Shown piece by piece: positions 31,496 through 38,484 of a DNA stretch of 64,000 nucleotides. The stretch comes from Deltaproteobacteria bacterium. GTDB taxonomy: Bacteria > Desulfobacterota > Desulfarculia > Adiutricales > Adiutricaceae. Under the pieces are notes generated by a model. It searched no databases, was not told the origin of the DNA, and worked only from the letters and a program-made list of their open reading frames with translations. A program made the position numbers and the translations under genes. The stretch covers positions 1 through 64,000 of the forward strand of contig JAITII010000100.1 in the NCBI GenBank assembly GCA_031279515.1, given 5' to 3'. Numbering within the stretch: the first letter of the stretch is position 1; each line of letters begins with the position of its first letter.

Positions 31496-32426
31496 GTTAC
31501 GTGATTATAGGAGAAATTTTAGGGACCTGGCCCGTTTTAATCCTGCACTAAAGCTTCATGCCAATTACCCACTCTCCGGGGTAAGCACCTTTAGGATAGG
31601 AGGAGAGGCTGGGCTTATGGCTAAACCCCTCAATGTTGGAGAACTAATTAAAGTATTGACCTTTGCCCAAAAGTCCTCACTTCCCACCTATATCCTAGGA
31701 GGAGGGTCCAACGTACTGTTTGACGATTTGGGATTCCAGGGGGTGATGATAAAGCCTACCGGGGACTTTCGTAATATAGAGGAAAAAGAAAATCTTATCT
31801 TAGCAGGCAGTATGTGCCACCTAAATGAATTGGCTCACCTGACAGCTGACAGGGGCTATGACGGATTTTGCAACTTGGTGGGGATCCCCGGGACCGTTGG
31901 CGGGGCCATAGTCATGAATGCCGGGGCATCGGGCAGCTCTATGGCAGACAGGGTGGAGGAAGTCACCCTCATTAACAGGTCCTTTAAAATGAAGACCTTT
32001 AAAAGGAGAGAGCTAAGGTTTGGGTACAGGAGTTTTACTGCCCCAGAGACTGGGATAATAATCTCGGCGCTCTTGAATGTAGGTGAAAATGTTGGGAAAA
32101 ATGTGGCCAGTGTAAAAATGAAAGAACGCTATGATGAAAGGCGCAGGCTCATCCCCAAAGGGCCTTCAGCTGGATCGGTATTTAAAAACCCCCCTGGAAA
32201 ATATGCCGGAAGCCTTATTGAAAAGTGCCGGCTAAAGGGCCGTCAGGTGGGAGAAGCGATGATAAGCCCCAGGCACGCCAATATAATTATCAACAAAGGA
32301 AAGGCCTCGGCAGCCGAGGTAACTACCCTTATCCACATGGCCCGCTTCGAGGTGTATAAGAAATTTCATATAGAGCTCGCCTTAGAGATAAAAGTCTTAA
32401 ATAGAAGGGGAGGCACCTATCTATGA
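31485..32426 (+). CDS. murB: UDP-N-acetylenolpyruvoylglucosamine reductase MurB
   Basis: The 313-residue FAD enzyme reduces UDP-GlcNAc-enolpyruvate to UDP-MurNAc. It has the FAD-binding LGGGSNVLFDD and GIPGTVGGAIVMNAGA segments, the catalytic Ser in GPSAGSVFKNP, and the C-terminal ISPRHANIIINKG block. The SVFKNP/AGSLIE arrangement is that of the shorter type II MurB (B. subtilis style) rather than E. coli type I. It overlaps murC by 11 bases and ftsQ by four. Confidence 0.96.
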   Translation: MHSELRDYRRNFRDLARFNPALKLHANYPLSGVSTFRIGGEAGLMAKPLNVGELIKVLTFAQKSSLPTYILGGGSNVLFDDLGFQGVMIKPTGDFRNIEEKENLILAGSMCHLNELAHLTADRGYDGFCNLVGIPGTVGGAIVMNAGASGSSMADRVEEVTLINRSFKMKTFKRRELRFGYRSFTAPETGIIISALLNVGENVGKNVASVKMKERYDERRRLIPKGPSAGSVFKNPPGKYAGSLIEKCRLKGRQVGEAMISPRHANIIINKGKASAAEVTTLIHMARFEVYKKFHIELALEIKVLNRRGGTYL

Positions 32427-33511
32427 AGGGGCTAAAGCCAAGGGCAGTAAACTTAGAGGCGCTAAAAAGTGGTAAGGGCACCCAAGGCGCTAGAACTATT
32501 GCCCCTTTAGGAAGGCTTAAGAGGATGGGGGAGATAGAGTCCAAAAAGGACCAAAAGGATAAAAGGAGGCTTTTAAGGGAGAATAATTTAAAAAAAGTAC
32601 AGGAGTCAAAGGCCGCAGAAAGTAGCCAAAATTTGCAAAAGAAGGACAAAAGACCCTTCTTAACAGCCTTAAAAACCGCGCCCAGGGTAGTAAGACGGGC
32701 CTTTTCCCTTATCTTTATTGGGGTAATAAGCGCTGTAATCTTAGCCATAGTCTCAGGAGGGTGCATCTGGGCGTATCTGTATTTTACAGAAAGCGACTAT
32801 TTTCTCATCAAAAACCACGACATCAAGGGGATAAACAGGGTCTCTCGCCAAGAGATCCTGGAGGCCACGGGACTTGATAGACCAGTCAATCTTTTGACCT
32901 TCGATACGGTGCGGGCAACAAGGAGCTTAAAAAGCCTCCCTTGGGTAGAGGATGCAACTATCTCCAGGACGCCCCCGCCGGATGGGATAACCATCAGGGT
33001 AACGGAGTACAAGCCCAGGGCCATAGTCAATCTAGAGCAGCTCTACTATATAGATGAAAAGGGAAGGCCCTTTAAAAGTCTAGCCGCAGGTGAGATTCCA
33101 GATTTGCCTTTTATAAGCGGCTTTACCTTAGATGCCCTCTTGGAGGGAGGTCCCATGACCCAAAAGGCGGTCTTGGAGATCTATGAGCTCATGGACATCT
33201 TAGCTGTCCGCACAGATGAATGGAACATTGATAATATCTCAGAATTTCGCCATGACCCTGACATCGGGGTCACCATCTTTAGAAGGGACATACCTTTAGA
33301 GATAAGGGTGGGGCCCGGTCCTTTTACGGAAAAGGTCTTGCGCCTCACAAGGGTGATGGATTGGCTAAAAAACAACAATAGATTTGAAGGACTAATCTTT
33401 GCCAACTTAGAGTGCGTGCCAAGGGTGATAGTTCGTTATGAAAAAGGCAAAATACCAGGTAATCCTTTGGAGATGGAACTGGCTTTAGGGGGCAGATTAC
33501 CTTCTACTTAA
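32423..33511 (+). CDS. ftsQ: Cell division protein FtsQ
   Basis: The 362-residue bitopic protein has a highly charged cytoplasmic region of about 90 residues, one transmembrane helix at about 92-117, a POTRA domain at about 125-200 (IKGINRVSRQEIL, then LPWVEDATISR) and an FtsQ beta domain. FtsQ recruits FtsB and FtsL and checks septal wall synthesis. The cytoplasmic part is much longer than in E. coli (about 25 residues). Overlap with murB is four bases. Confidence 0.92.
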   Translation: MKGLKPRAVNLEALKSGKGTQGARTIAPLGRLKRMGEIESKKDQKDKRRLLRENNLKKVQESKAAESSQNLQKKDKRPFLTALKTAPRVVRRAFSLIFIGVISAVILAIVSGGCIWAYLYFTESDYFLIKNHDIKGINRVSRQEILEATGLDRPVNLLTFDTVRATRSLKSLPWVEDATISRTPPPDGITIRVTEYKPRAIVNLEQLYYIDEKGRPFKSLAAGEIPDLPFISGFTLDALLEGGPMTQKAVLEIYELMDILAVRTDEWNIDNISEFRHDPDIGVTIFRRDIPLEIRVGPGPFTEKVLRLTRVMDWLKNNNRFEGLIFANLECVPRVIVRYEKGKIPGNPLEMELALGGRLPST

Positions 33512-33553
33512 GACAGATAATGGAAAAGCTTTACTTATTAAGACAGATAATGG
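33508..33553. repeat. 16-bp direct repeat across the ftsQ stop codon
   Basis: TTAAGACAGATAATGG occurs at 33508-33523 and 33538-33553, a 30-base period. The first copy contains the ftsQ stop codon (TAA at 33509-33511). Confidence 0.8.
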
Positions 33554-33598
33554 GAAGCATGGACTTGGAAATAAATGGAGAAATTTAGTTTAATTTGC

Positions 33599-33627: not shown

Positions 33628-33650
33628 GGCCCTGATAGGATAAATGCATT

Positions 33651-34880
33651 ATGGATAACGATAGCGAAAAAATTGTAGGATTGGACCTGGGGACAACCAA
33701 GGTGACCTGCGTAGCAGCTATAGTCAATGATTTGGGGGGCCTGGAGATCATAGGGGTGGGCAACGCCCCCTCCCACGGCATGAGCCAAGGCATTGTCTAC
33801 AACATGGAACTCACCCAGGAGTCCATAGTAAAGGCGGTGGCCGAAGCCCAGCGCATGGCGGGTTGCAGCTTAAACAACGTCTATGTGGGTATAGCCGGGG
33901 CGCATATCGCGAGCTCCAATAGCCACGGGGTCATAGGCGTAAGAGACCTGGAAAACCGGGTGATAAGCGAAGAGGACAAAAAGCGCGCCTTGGTTGCCGC
34001 AGAGACTGTCAATATTCCCCAGGGCAGGGTCATCATTCAGAGCATACCCCAGGCCTATAAGGTGGATGACGTGGACGGGATCTTAGATCCCTTGGGCATG
34101 GTGGGCGTGCGCCTGGAGGTGAGGGTGCATATCATCACCGCCGCCATGAACGCCTATCAGAATCTTACCAACTGTGTAAACGGAGCTAATCTCAATATCT
34201 GCGACATGATTTTGGAATCCATTGCCTCCGCTGAGGCGGTGATGCATCCCCAGGAAATGGACATGGGCTCGGTTATCTTAGACATAGGGGGAGGCACTAC
34301 GGACATAGCCATCTTTTGCGATGGGGTCATAGTCCATTCAGCAGAGCTGGCCATGGGAGGAGACGATATCACCAGGGAATTGGCAGTTCAGCTCCGCACC
34401 TCCATAGATTCTGCTGAGGCCTTCAAAGTGCAGTTCGGTTGTTGCCTGGCTGAGCTTCTAGAGTCGGAACAGGTGGTGGAGGTGCCCTCCTTGGGCGGAG
34501 CGCCCCAGACCTTTGACTGCTACGATGTAGTGGGTATCCAGGAGAAGAAGGTCTCTGAACTTTTGGGGCTCATCGCAAATGAGATAGAAAGCTCGGGTTA
34601 CGAAAAGCGTATCTCCAGCGTGGTGGTGACAGGAGGCTCTTCCCAACTGCCTGGTCTTGCGGATTTGGCCTCCCAGATCCTCGCCAAACCAGTGCGCTTA
34701 GGTTTTCCCCATCTGGAAGGGGGCCTTTCTTCCATGGTGCGCGATCCACGCTATTCCACAGCCATTGGTTTAATTTTCCAGGGCTTGCAAAAAGAACGGG
34801 ATCTTTCTACCCCCAGTAGGGAGGACAGATCCCAAGCTGGTATCTGGCAAAGGTTCCGCAGTATCTTCAGATTGGTGTAA
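33651..34880 (+). CDS. ftsA: Cell division protein FtsA (first copy)
   Basis: The 409-residue actin-like ATPase anchors FtsZ to the membrane. It shows the phosphate-1 motif GLDLGTTKV, the SHS2/1C subdomain with RVIIQSIPQAYKVDD, phosphate-2 LDIGGGTTDIAIF, the adenosine motif VVTGGSSQLPGL and a C-terminal amphipathic helix (WQRFRSIFRLV). All features of a working FtsA are present. It is followed 85 bases later by a second, clearly related ftsA gene. Confidence 0.95.
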   Translation: MDNDSEKIVGLDLGTTKVTCVAAIVNDLGGLEIIGVGNAPSHGMSQGIVYNMELTQESIVKAVAEAQRMAGCSLNNVYVGIAGAHIASSNSHGVIGVRDLENRVISEEDKKRALVAAETVNIPQGRVIIQSIPQAYKVDDVDGILDPLGMVGVRLEVRVHIITAAMNAYQNLTNCVNGANLNICDMILESIASAEAVMHPQEMDMGSVILDIGGGTTDIAIFCDGVIVHSAELAMGGDDITRELAVQLRTSIDSAEAFKVQFGCCLAELLESEQVVEVPSLGGAPQTFDCYDVVGIQEKKVSELLGLIANEIESSGYEKRISSVVVTGGSSQLPGLADLASQILAKPVRLGFPHLEGGLSSMVRDPRYSTAIGLIFQGLQKERDLSTPSREDRSQAGIWQRFRSIFRLV

Positions 34881-34965
34881 AAGATAGGCTTTTTAGCACC
34901 TTTGGCAAAAAGTTTTTTTAAAACGCTTAATGACAAATTATTTAGCTTAAGACGAGGAGAGTCCA

Positions 34966-36207
34966 ATGCTTGAATCAAGCAACATCATAGGAGCCCTGGA
35001 CGTGGGCACAACCAAGGTTACCTGCGTTATCGCCTCCCCCGATGAAGACGGAGGGGTAAATGTGGTGGGCATTGGCAATGCCACCTGCCGGGGCATGGCC
35101 AGGGGCATGGTCATCAATGTGGATAGAACAGTAGCCTCCATCCGTCAAGCGGTGGGTGAGGCGGAGCATATGGCAGGCGTTAAACTAAAAAGCGTCATGC
35201 TGGGGGTAGCTGGGGGTAAGGTCCAGTGTTATAACGCCAAAGGCATTGCCGGAGTCAGAGATTCCCGCAAGAGGATAATAACCGAAGACGACAAGAGACG
35301 GGCTCTGGAAAACGCCATCTCCGGAGACATCCCCTCCGACAGGGAGCTCATCCACACCATAGAGCAGGAGTACACAGTAGATAACCAGACCAACATCAAA
35401 GATCCCTTGGGAATGATGGGCCTAAGGTTGGAGGTGAATGTCCATATCATCACGGTCTCTTTAAATGCCCTCCAGAATATCATGAATTGTGCCCGTCAGG
35501 CGGACCTGGAGATCATGGACGATGACGATGTGGTCTTGGAATCCTTGGCCTCTGCCAAGAGTTGCTTAAGACCGGAAGAGACCCAAATGGGAGTAGCCAT
35601 CGTGGACATAGGTGGAGGATCTGTGGATCTTGCGATCTTTGAAAATAGCTGCGTACGCCACACCAAGGTCTTTGAGATGGGAGGAGATAATCTCACAAGA
35701 GATATCTCACTGGGCTTCCAGACCCCCATGGATGCGGCGGAGCTTTTAAAGGTGGAGGAAGGGTGCTGCCTTAGAACCCTGTTGGGCGATGAAGAATTCA
35801 TCATTGTCCCGGGAACAGCAGGTAAGAATGTGGAAGTAAGTCGCCATGTCCTCTGCGACGTCCTGGTAGAGAGGGTAGAGGAGATATTGGGCTGCGTTAA
35901 TCATGAACTGGTGGTGAGCGGCTATTACGACAAGGTGATGGAAGTGGTTCTAACTGGAGGGGGTTCTCTCCTTTTGGGTCTTCCGGAAGTGGCAGAGCAA
36001 GTCTTTGATAGACCCGTGCGCCTGGGAGAACCCACCGGAGTGGGAGGGCTTACCAAATTAATCAAGAGCCCACGCTATTCCACAGCCATGGGCCTTATCC
36101 TCTACGGCATGGAAAACTATCTAGCCAGAGACCAGGGTCCCATCCTGAAAAATGGCAAGGGTTTTTTTAGTGGTGTCAAAGAGTGGTTTTCCCGCTCCTT
36201 AGGCTAG
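34966..36207 (+). CDS. ftsA: Second FtsA paralogue
   Basis: The 413-residue protein is collinear with the upstream FtsA through its whole length, at roughly 45% identity by eye. It keeps phosphate-1 (ALDVGTTKV), phosphate-2 (VDIGGGSVDLAIF, with Ser-Val replacing Thr-Thr), the TGGGSLLLGL adenosine motif and a C-terminal amphipathic helix (VKEWFSRSLG). An acidic insert (DDDD) lies near residue 180. GAGGAGA gives it its own strong ribosome site. Both copies look functional, so this is tandem duplication with divergence. Whether they co-polymerise or take separate roles is unknown. Confidence 0.9.
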   Translation: MLESSNIIGALDVGTTKVTCVIASPDEDGGVNVVGIGNATCRGMARGMVINVDRTVASIRQAVGEAEHMAGVKLKSVMLGVAGGKVQCYNAKGIAGVRDSRKRIITEDDKRRALENAISGDIPSDRELIHTIEQEYTVDNQTNIKDPLGMMGLRLEVNVHIITVSLNALQNIMNCARQADLEIMDDDDVVLESLASAKSCLRPEETQMGVAIVDIGGGSVDLAIFENSCVRHTKVFEMGGDNLTRDISLGFQTPMDAAELLKVEEGCCLRTLLGDEEFIIVPGTAGKNVEVSRHVLCDVLVERVEEILGCVNHELVVSGYYDKVMEVVLTGGGSLLLGLPEVAEQVFDRPVRLGEPTGVGGLTKLIKSPRYSTAMGLILYGMENYLARDQGPILKNGKGFFSGVKEWFSRSLG

Positions 36208-36346
36208 AAATGGACTAGCCTCTAATTTTTGGGTTTAAGGCAGCCCACAGTTTTCATCTTTAGATAATCTTGTTAAGGCCCATTAGAGGCCAAAATGGGC
36301 ATGATAATTTATGAGGCTTTGGGGCTAAATTTTTTATCTTTAAGCC

Positions 36347-36374
36347 CCCCAGGGCCTTTTAAGAGGCCCTGGGG
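36347..36374. other. Strong hairpin downstream of the ftsA pair
   Basis: An 11-bp perfect GC-rich stem (CCCCAGGGCCT with AGGCCCTGGGG) has a six-base loop. No T tract follows on the plus strand, so it is not a classical terminator; it may be a transcript-end or processing structure. Confidence 0.55.
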
Positions 36375-36417
36375 AAGGGAAAAAGGGTAGAGCTAAGATA
36401 TTATTTTTATTCTGGAT

Positions 36418-36470
36418 TTTAACTCTGGGGTTTAAGTCTTGGGCTTAACTCTAGGGTTTAACTCTTGGGC
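36418..36470. repeat. Degenerate 12-14 bp tandem repeat with G tracts
   Basis: Four units of the form TTTAACTCTTGGG (12-14 bases) run in tandem, each ending in a G3 or G4 run. The G tracts are on the coding strand, as in the array at 29916. Confidence 0.7.
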
Positions 36471-36744
36471 TTTTTGGCTTAAGTCTTTTTAGAAAAATTG
36501 GCCTTTTTAGAGGAAAAGAGAAAAATTGCCCCTTAGTTAGAAAGCTTTTCTGGGCCAAAATCCAAGAAATGCCCCTTAGAAAAAATAGATGGCCAAAAAA
36601 TATTTTTTTCCTTTGCGGCTTTTAACACTCCTTTCTATATCTCAAAGTCCGCATAAATAGTAGTTAATATTTGAGGGGCTCGCCAAAGGGAATAATTTCT
36701 AGGGAGGGGAGGAAAAAAAATATCAATTTTTTTTGTTTTTTCAC

Positions 36745-36773
36745 TTGACAAAGACCCCATATCTGGAGAAAAT
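36745..36773 (+). promoter_or_regulatory. Candidate ftsZ promoter
   Basis: Perfect TTGACA at 36745-36750, a 17-base spacer, then GAAAAT. It would give a leader of about 330 bases before ftsZ. The -10 is only a partial match. Confidence 0.4.
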
Positions 36774-37113
36774 GGCTTATGGGAATTTTATTCATTTGGG
36801 CTAAAGCCCAAAGTCGACACTACAATGCTAATAAAAGAAATGCCTCTTTAAGGCTTGGCTTAAGATGAGTGTCATTGGGCCCGGGGACGTGGGGGCACAG
36901 TCCCAAAAGGGAGTGGTATTTTGGTCAGTTAAAAAATAGCTGGCCCGCACCCTTTGGTCCATAAATTAAGAAATAGGGACCAGAGCTTAAGTTAAGCTTA
37001 TGGGCCTTAAATATTTTAAGCCAAGATACTAAACCCATATTTTAAACCCATGCAATGGATTGGACCCTAGGGCGATGATACCCGGGAAAGGGGTATAGGA
37101 GGGTAAGCATATA

Positions 37114-38484
37114 ATGAGCGAAGATTTCTCCTTCTTAGGAAAGAGTGAAGACCTAAAGCTAAGCGGTATCCACAAGCTCAGGGTGCTGGGCATAGGCGGC
37201 TGCGGCAACAAGGCCATCGACCATATGGTGAATATGGGAATCGAAGGGGTGGAATTCGTAGCTGCCAATACAGATCCCAATGACCTTAAGGTATGCCAAG
37301 CCCCAGTAAAGATCCTCCTTGGAGAAAAGATCACCAGGGGTGAAGGTTGCGGCGGAGACCCGGAGGTGGGCACCCGTGCCTGCAAAGAAACCTTGGATCA
37401 CCTGAAGTCCGTTTTGGAGGGCACAGATTTGCTCTTCATAGTTGCGGGTTTAGGAGGTGGTACTGGTAGCGGAGGGGCCCCTGTGGTGGCCGAGGCCTTT
37501 GCTGCCATGGAGCACCCGCCCTTAATCGTATCAGTGGTTACTACACCTTTTTCCTGGGAAGAGGATCGCCAGGTCATAGCCAAGGATATCTTAAAGGAAC
37601 TCACAAGGCACTCCAATGCGGTAATAACTGTTTCCAATTCTATCTTAGAGGAGCTGGTTCCCGACGATTTTACCTATGAGCAGACAGCAGCCAAGGGTAA
37701 TGATGTCCTCTACAAAGCAGTCTCCGGGATAGTGGAAATACTTATGGTAAACGGCAAGATCAACTGCGATTTTGCCGATGTACGCAAGACCTTAGAGTGC
37801 CGGGGCCCAGCCCTCATAGCCTTTGGCGAGGCCTCTGGAGAAAACAGGGCTAAAAAGGCTCTGCAGAATGCCATTGATGCTCCCTTGGTCTCTGAACACT
37901 CCATCAAAGGTGCCAAAAGGCTGTTAATCTATATAGTGGGCGACAAAAAACTCCTCATGAGCGAGTTTAAGGAAATTAACAAGTTGGCAACTGAGATGGG
38001 CGGTAAAGGAGTAAAGCCCATTACAGGACTTGCCGAAGATCCCTCTTTAGCAGAATCCGGCATCATCAGGGTAATCATCATCGCCACAGGTCTAGACAAT
38101 GAAATGGCCTGGGATGAGCCCCAAAAGCCCCAGGAAGAGGTGATAAATTTAACTGCCCTAGCTGACGAGCCGGATGTAAATGTTAGGTCAACAGATGATG
38201 TTCCTGTAAGAAAGACCTTAGCCGGTGCCTTTCGTCCTGTGCCACAGGTCCCAGCAAGTCCAGCGGATCCAGTCGGCATAGGCGCCATCAAACCAACCAT
38301 CCTAAGGCCCCAACCCCAAAAGGAGGGGACAGGTCTACATTCCAATCAAACCAATAGGGTGGTAAGGCCCTTAACTGGAAGTGGCCAAGCTTCCCGCTAT
38401 CAGCAGAATGCTGGAGTGGATCCAGGTGGTGCCAATCCTCCAGGTTTTGAGACCCCCACCTTCTTACGCAATAACGCCAATTAG
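37114..38484 (+). CDS. ftsZ: Cell division GTPase FtsZ
   Basis: The 456-residue tubulin homologue forms the Z-ring. It has the N-terminal GIGGCGNKAIDHM, the GTP signature GGGTGSG at 114-120, the T7 synergy region with NCDFADVRKTL, a Pro-rich disordered linker from about 345 and a C-terminal conserved peptide ETPTFLRN that should bind FtsA and other partners. It is longer than E. coli FtsZ (383) because of the linker. Two FtsA paralogues lie upstream, and a strong terminator follows. Confidence 0.97.
   Translation: MSEDFSFLGKSEDLKLSGIHKLRVLGIGGCGNKAIDHMVNMGIEGVEFVAANTDPNDLKVCQAPVKILLGEKITRGEGCGGDPEVGTRACKETLDHLKSVLEGTDLLFIVAGLGGGTGSGGAPVVAEAFAAMEHPPLIVSVVTTPFSWEEDRQVIAKDILKELTRHSNAVITVSNSILEELVPDDFTYEQTAAKGNDVLYKAVSGIVEILMVNGKINCDFADVRKTLECRGPALIAFGEASGENRAKKALQNAIDAPLVSEHSIKGAKRLLIYIVGDKKLLMSEFKEINKLATEMGGKGVKPITGLAEDPSLAESGIIRVIIIATGLDNEMAWDEPQKPQEEVINLTALADEPDVNVRSTDDVPVRKTLAGAFRPVPQVPASPADPVGIGAIKPTILRPQPQKEGTGLHSNQTNRVVRPLTGSGQASRYQQNAGVDPGGANPPGFETPTFLRNNAN

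Follow-up and report, generated by a model that had tools for sequence, protein, structure and literature searches.

FtsA, a protein related to actin, anchors the division ring at the membrane, and rings built of paralogous subunits exist in other systems. The structures nearest to the proteins described here are the antiparallel double filaments of V. maritimus and E. coli FtsA with FtsN (PDB 7Q6F and 7Q6I), in which one protein supplies both strands (PMC7613929). PilM and MreB share the actin fold, and PilM has an IC-type domain as well (PMC7613929). Archaeal FtsZ1 and FtsZ2 are paralogous division-ring proteins that occur side by side. In a few bacteria, a second ftsZ is reported outside the dcw cluster (PMC9871819).

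In the present study, we analysed a stretch of 64,000 nucleotides (the window) from a deltaproteobacterial genome of 3.5 Mb (148 contigs, 94% complete). As in the archaeal case, paralogous division-ring proteins are found next to each other, but here it is the actin-like partner that is doubled, and two paralogues, FtsA1 and FtsA2, are available where the known double filaments use one protein. The two proteins agree with the FtsA family in score, in the ATP motifs and the IC/SHS2 domain, in the amphipathic tail, in predicted fold and in being encoded within the dcw cluster. They differ from it in being two diverged tandem copies, in a shared three-residue IC insert, in an acidic insert of the second copy, and in an evolution about threefold faster than in near relatives. 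FtsA is single in the phylum sample, doubled through four genera here, and found beside a genus with doubled FtsZ. Such a pair is a natural way to ask which tasks of FtsA (membrane anchor, FtsZ tether and FtsN-controlled switch) are separable, and whether two different subunits could make up an FtsA double filament.

Organization of the locus

The dcw genes of the window are arranged in the order pbp, murE, murF, mraY, murD, ftsW, murG, murC, murB, ftsQ, ftsA1, ftsA2 and ftsZ, followed by a radical-SAM gene and then nagZ (all gene names other than those of ftsA and ftsZ were assigned from position and are putative). The order murC, murB, ftsQ, ftsA and ftsZ is common to relatives. A preliminary description of this DNA had reported two tandem, diverged and collinear ftsA genes before ftsZ, each with its own ribosome site and with the actin-fold motifs and a membrane-binding helix in its product. 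This was borne out: the two genes lie on one strand between ftsQ and ftsZ, 85 bp apart (Table 1), both products exceed the cut-off of the FtsA family, with 45% identity between them over 381 positions, and the ribosome site is strong for ftsA2 and weak to fair for ftsA1.

Table 1. Coordinates of the features of the ftsA1-ftsA2 locus in the window
Feature	Position	Strand	Basis or remark
ftsQ, upstream neighbour	32423..33511	+	Open reading frame and gene order
AGGA, possible ribosome site of ftsA1	33637..33640	+	10 nt before ftsA1; weak to fair
ftsA1 (FtsA, 409 aa)	33651..34880	+	TIGR01174, 363.0 bits; PF14450 and PF02491; FtsA1 clade 100/99; model pLDDT 87
C-terminal amphipathic helix of FtsA1, residues 397-407	34839..34871	+	Moment 0.72, charge +3
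GAGGAG, ribosome site of ftsA2	34954..34959	+	6 nt before ftsA2; strong
ftsA2 (FtsA, 413 aa)	34966..36207	+	TIGR01174, 377.5 bits; PF14450 and PF02491; FtsA2 clade 100/100; model pLDDT 88
Acidic insert of FtsA2, about residues 185-187	35518..35526	+	Alignment of the copies
Phosphate-2 GGGSVD of FtsA2, residues 216-221	35611..35628	+	Motif reading
C-terminal amphipathic helix of FtsA2, residues 398-408	36157..36189	+	Moment 0.69, charge +1
Terminator-like hairpin	36201-36221		Overlaps the start of the ftsA2-ftsZ gap
ftsA2-ftsZ gap, 906 bp	36208..37113	.	Terminator-like hairpin, promoter-like site and repeats inside or at its start
Promoter-like site in the ftsA2-ftsZ gap	36745-36773		
ftsZ	37114..38484	+	Sole FtsZ match of the genome; TIGR00065, 268 bits; PF00091 and PF12327

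The FtsZ of the window has the T4 loop GGGTGSG, the T7 motif NCDFAD and the C-terminal peptide FETPTFLRNNAN. As in most of its clade, its score is below the TIGR00065 cut-off (295.2).

The gap between ftsA2 and ftsZ contains 13-bp tandem repeats at 36418-36469 (4.0 copies) and 37011-37051 (3.2 copies). A decayed ftsZ or ftsA in this gap was considered and rejected (best tblastn match, E 0.005 over 14 aa). Between ftsQ and ftsA1, a 19-bp direct repeat (95%) occupies 33508-33526 and 33538-33556 and overlaps the ftsQ stop. The promoter scan gave three promoter-like sites against a mean of 4.1 in shuffled sequences, that is, no excess; terminator-like sites numbered 9 against 4.4 in shuffles and are left out of the argument. 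No RNA element near the ftsA and ftsZ genes reached the gathering score.

Both proteins are members of the FtsA family

Both copies far exceed the equivalog cut-off of TIGR01174 (175.85), and both contain the FtsA domain (PF14450) and the SHS2_FTSA domain (PF02491), the latter corresponding to IC/SHS2 at residues 83-163. The ATP motifs are intact: DxGTTK, DIGGGTTD in FtsA1 or DIGGGSVD in FtsA2, and TGG. At the C-terminus, the best 11-residue helix moment had a composition-shuffle p of 0.03 in FtsA1 and 0.06 in FtsA2; thus, an amphipathic helix is predicted for both copies, less strongly for FtsA2, in a region where the AlphaFold confidence is low. The genes also lie where an ftsA is expected, beside ftsQ and ftsZ among the dcw genes. 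AlphaFold models built on 20 natural sequences retain the FtsA fold in both copies; the top PDB match of the FtsA1 model was V. maritimus FtsA (Z 49.9), and that of the FtsA2 model was the V. maritimus FtsA double filament (Z 50.2).

Assignment of FtsA2 to another actin-like family was rejected. It scores 377 bits as FtsA compared with 35 as PilM and 34 as MreB, and its model gives a Z of 50 with FtsA compared with 31 for PilM and 28 for MreB/Mbl. For the two copies together, the scores are 363-377 bits against 27-40 (pilM, 27-35 bits with a cut-off of 133; mreB, 34-40 bits with a cut-off of 366), and the structural Z values are 50 against 28-32.

Among the 10 genomes with the pair, the position of E. 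coli R300, which we take to be that of FtsZ binding, is R or K in all FtsA1 and R in all FtsA2 (10/10 each). The acidic phosphate-2 residue (E. coli D210) and G336 are also kept in 10/10 of each copy. The R153 and I143 positions, which bear on comparison with the V. maritimus and E. coli double filaments, are kept in all 20 copies, R153 as R in 10/10 of each. Both copies may bind the C-terminal peptide of FtsZ and membranes and polymerise with ATP; the residues at the R300 position and the FtsZ tail FETPTFLRNNAN are indirect signs of this.

Distribution of the pair

The preliminary description held that most dcw clusters have one ftsA, and our survey agrees. When 297 genomes of the phylum were searched with FtsA2 as the query (E 1e-25), 285 had an FtsA match: two in the window genome and one in each of the other 284. 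Only four genomes of this sample belong to the family of the window, and thus the survey gauges rarity outside the family and not inside it. Within the order, at least two (two or three) FtsA over the cut-off were found in 12 of the 41 genomes, all in family f1. FtsA1 and FtsA2 are both present, in identical order, in 10 of the 11 genomes of genera g1, g5, g6 and g7; the eleventh (G024) has no FtsA over the cut-off. The recurrence of the pair in 10/11 genomes of four genera shows that it is not a chance arrangement. A search of genome contigs with FtsA2 alone gave no match, and one with an alignment as the query gave nine records, whose ftsA products are identical in sequence to those of nine relatives of the window genome.

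Members of the Adiutricaceae have been reported from the guts of termites and millipedes (PMC9137090, PMC10823672), and the group with two FtsA is probably gut-living and in or near the Adiutricaceae of the Desulfobacterota. Our searches of the open-access literature gave no publication about a natural FtsA pair, which is a weak sign of novelty.

Age of the duplication

In the FtsA tree (53 rows), each copy groups with its own orthologues from relatives: the FtsA1 clade has 10 rows (100/99) and the FtsA2 clade 11 rows (100/100), and the two are joined at 97/93. A recent duplication was rejected, as forcing the two copies of the window to be sisters lowers lnL by 164. A second FtsA tree was made with seven long or truncated FtsA rows left out. 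In the tree of six other dcw proteins, the four genera are together (100/100), with genus g4 as their sister (82/76). AU tests in which either copy was placed with g4 did not reject these placements (p 0.21 and 0.37). All 21 copies of the FtsA1 and FtsA2 clades share three additional residues in the IC domain, an insert that at this length occurs in 0/32 others, two of which have an insert of two residues. The shared insert, together with the species tree, speaks for a duplication younger than the separation from g4. The pair most likely arose when ftsA was duplicated in tandem long ago, in an ancestor shared by the four genera.

Both copies are under purifying selection in genus g5: over 10 pairs for each copy, pairwise dN/dS ranged from 0.12 to 0.26 in FtsA1 and from 0.09 to 0.28 in FtsA2. 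FtsZ in the same genus is looser than the FtsA copies (0.31-0.57; 6 pairs, linker included).

Three later ftsA duplications were also seen, in G029 (a third copy, from FtsA2; branch 2.89), G019 (1.47) and G008 (1.07). They look independent, the placement of such long branches being unsure. The extra FtsA of G029 and G019 (L090:8458-9654 and L081:2682-3842) have a damaged phosphate-2 and no amphipathic tail, on very long branches.

Differences between FtsA1 and FtsA2

The preliminary description had seen hints of specialisation in the acidic insert and in the GGGSVD motif of the second copy, and the two fared differently. The insert is indeed a trait of FtsA2: it consists of two additional, mostly acidic residues in the orthologues (three in the window), is present in 10/10, and is absent from FtsA1 and every other FtsA copy aligned. 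GGGSVD is not such a trait. Among the FtsA2 orthologues, it is found only in the window (0/9 of the others, of which six have GGGTTD, one has GGGTAD, and those of g7 have GAGTTG and GAGTTD), and it recurs in a copy of G008, which belongs to a different genus; it is therefore no evidence of specialisation.

The moment of the C-terminal helix is larger in FtsA1 than in FtsA2 in 10/10 genomes, which are related and do not represent ten independent events (means, about 0.78 and 0.65), and the helix of FtsA1 is usually the more basic. At the site of E. coli E124, all FtsA2 (10/10) have D, whereas FtsA1 has G or A in 7/10 (g1 and g5) and E or D in g6 and g7. The site is acidic in 23 of 30 other copies, a set compiled with the three extra FtsA copies left out. 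Thus, FtsA1 of g1 and g5 differs from E. coli FtsA in having no acidic residue there. In E. coli, the mutation E124A suppresses FtsN defects, and with FtsN the mutant protein assembles into double filaments more readily (PMC7613929).

The two copies are fixed differently at 13 sites, six of which are in the IC domain, with the subdomain limits assumed here. Enrichment in this domain had a p of 0.03 against all columns; with the better null of equally conserved columns the values were 0.09 and 0.19, and thus the enrichment is not a proof. The fixed differences, the acidic insert and the membrane helix, kept across four genera, suggest that some specialisation is likely, and this part of the preliminary description stands.

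Possible roles of the two copies

We lean somewhat towards the explanation that the two FtsA act as a two-subunit tether, both serving one FtsZ with unequal, divided labour and probably unequal control. Both copies would bind the membrane and the C-terminal peptide of the single FtsZ, FtsA1 as the stronger membrane anchor and FtsA2 as the weaker one. FtsA1 of the window's lineage is altered at the site whose mutation makes E. coli FtsA more responsive to FtsN, and FtsA2 keeps the ancestral acidic residue there. As FtsA1 of g6 and g7 lacks this change, it cannot be the original reason for having two copies. The copies would be made together and might meet in one ring or filament. Paralogy, age, retention, intact motifs, an intact predicted fold, copy-specific differences and purifying selection on both copies were observed; binding to FtsZ and membrane by both, co-expression, co-assembly and the division of labour are conjectured.

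A tentative alternative is that FtsA1 and FtsA2 form a two-component bacterial actin without any new function: each copy would have partly lost self-polymerisation, and by this complementary loss the two must alternate or pair in an obligate mixed filament, g4 having doubled FtsZ instead. If so, this clade would offer a natural experiment on the passage of the division ring from one-subunit to two-subunit polymers. Such dependence would fit the presence of both copies in 10/11 genomes with no FtsA over the cut-off in the eleventh, as well as the decay of extra FtsA copies elsewhere. In the V. maritimus double filament, lateral contacts are formed by the IC domain (PMC7613929), and it is in this domain that the shared insert and six of the 13 fixed copy-specific sites lie. 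However, the excess of such sites in the IC domain is not significant when conserved columns serve as the null. Furthermore, mutation of R153 together with M96 abolishes E. coli double filaments (PMC7613929), but R153 is intact in every FtsA1 and FtsA2, so that no loss of the lateral contact is apparent in either copy.

Rates of evolution and losses in the clade

The clade repeatedly duplicates and quickly alters its division-ring genes, and the rest of the cell-wall cluster is ordinary. To put proteins on one scale, distances were expressed relative to the mean of MurD, FtsW, MurG and MurC. The relative distance of FtsA (copy 1) is 0.43 for the 45 pairs outside the clade and about threefold higher, 1.29, for the 210 pairs within it; the corresponding values for the FtsZ core are 0.80 (36 pairs) and 1.24 (210 pairs). 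Neither FtsQ (1.48 outside, 1.16 within) nor MreB (0.43 and 0.32; 15 pairs each) shows a rise. These tables contain one FtsZ per genome, with FtsZ under 360 aa left out, and the MreB of 17/30 fetched loci, the remainder having failed the motif and length filter; pbp, murE and murF yielded no pairs. The FtsA ratio is also high (1.36; 91 pairs) in the genera of the clade with a single FtsA. Thus, the rate rose before the duplication or apart from it, and the divergence of the copies need not mean new roles.

Several partners of the ring are missing. SepF and MinC are absent from 41/41 genomes of the order, and with SepF an alternative tether is lacking. ZapA was not found in the window genome or its genus mate. 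The extracellular domain of FtsX (PF18075) is missing in 37/37 genomes of family f1 and present in 4/4 of two neighbouring families.

These observations raise another, rather unlikely, explanation, in which loss of regulators, or conflict with phages or toxins aimed at FtsA or FtsZ, has relaxed or driven the evolution of both proteins, and the duplicates are spare or decoy by-products that appear and disappear. The rise in rate of FtsA and FtsZ but not of MreB and FtsQ, the frequency of duplicates in the order (at least two ftsA in 12/41 genomes and at least two FtsZ matches in 16/41), the damaged extra FtsA of G029 and G019, and the loss in FtsX are all in keeping with it. However, the FtsA1-FtsA2 pair is old and under purifying selection, and the FtsX loss includes genus g2, where FtsA is slow.

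The divided two-subunit tether is also to be preferred to a simple need for more FtsA. The tandem arrangement on one strand with a ribosome site for each gene would suit an effect of dosage, but dosage copies usually stay alike, and the 45% identity, the separate clades and the inserts and helices that distinguish the copies across four genera make this explanation very improbable. An error of assembly or binning is scarcely credible: although all the genomes concerned are drafts (completeness, 74-94%), the two genes share a contig and keep their order in 10 genomes, and nine of these are separate records from several samples.

Duplication of ftsZ in the order

At least two FtsZ matches were found in 16 of the 41 genomes of the order, some of the matches being fragments at contig ends; a match over the cut-off was found in only 13/41. 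All seven genomes of genus g4 (G015-G021; L077-L083 and L115) have two full-length ftsZ, whose products are 464-494 aa and 430-483 aa. In the FtsZ tree, from which FtsZ under 200 aa were left out, these copies form two clades (SH-aLRT 97 and 100), and the T4 loop of the second copy is altered in 6/7. Whereas the bacterial second ftsZ mentioned above is reported outside the dcw cluster, the g4 pair is in tandem inside it. In the dcw loci fetched from G015-G018, G020 and G021, the two genes lie after ftsA and before the radical-SAM gene, either adjoining or with a single short ftsZ between them. Short FtsZ of about 214-375 aa with no C-terminal peptide were also seen near full-length ftsZ in L085, L079, L080, L114 and L074, and the genomes with such tail-less proteins include G023, G017 and G018.
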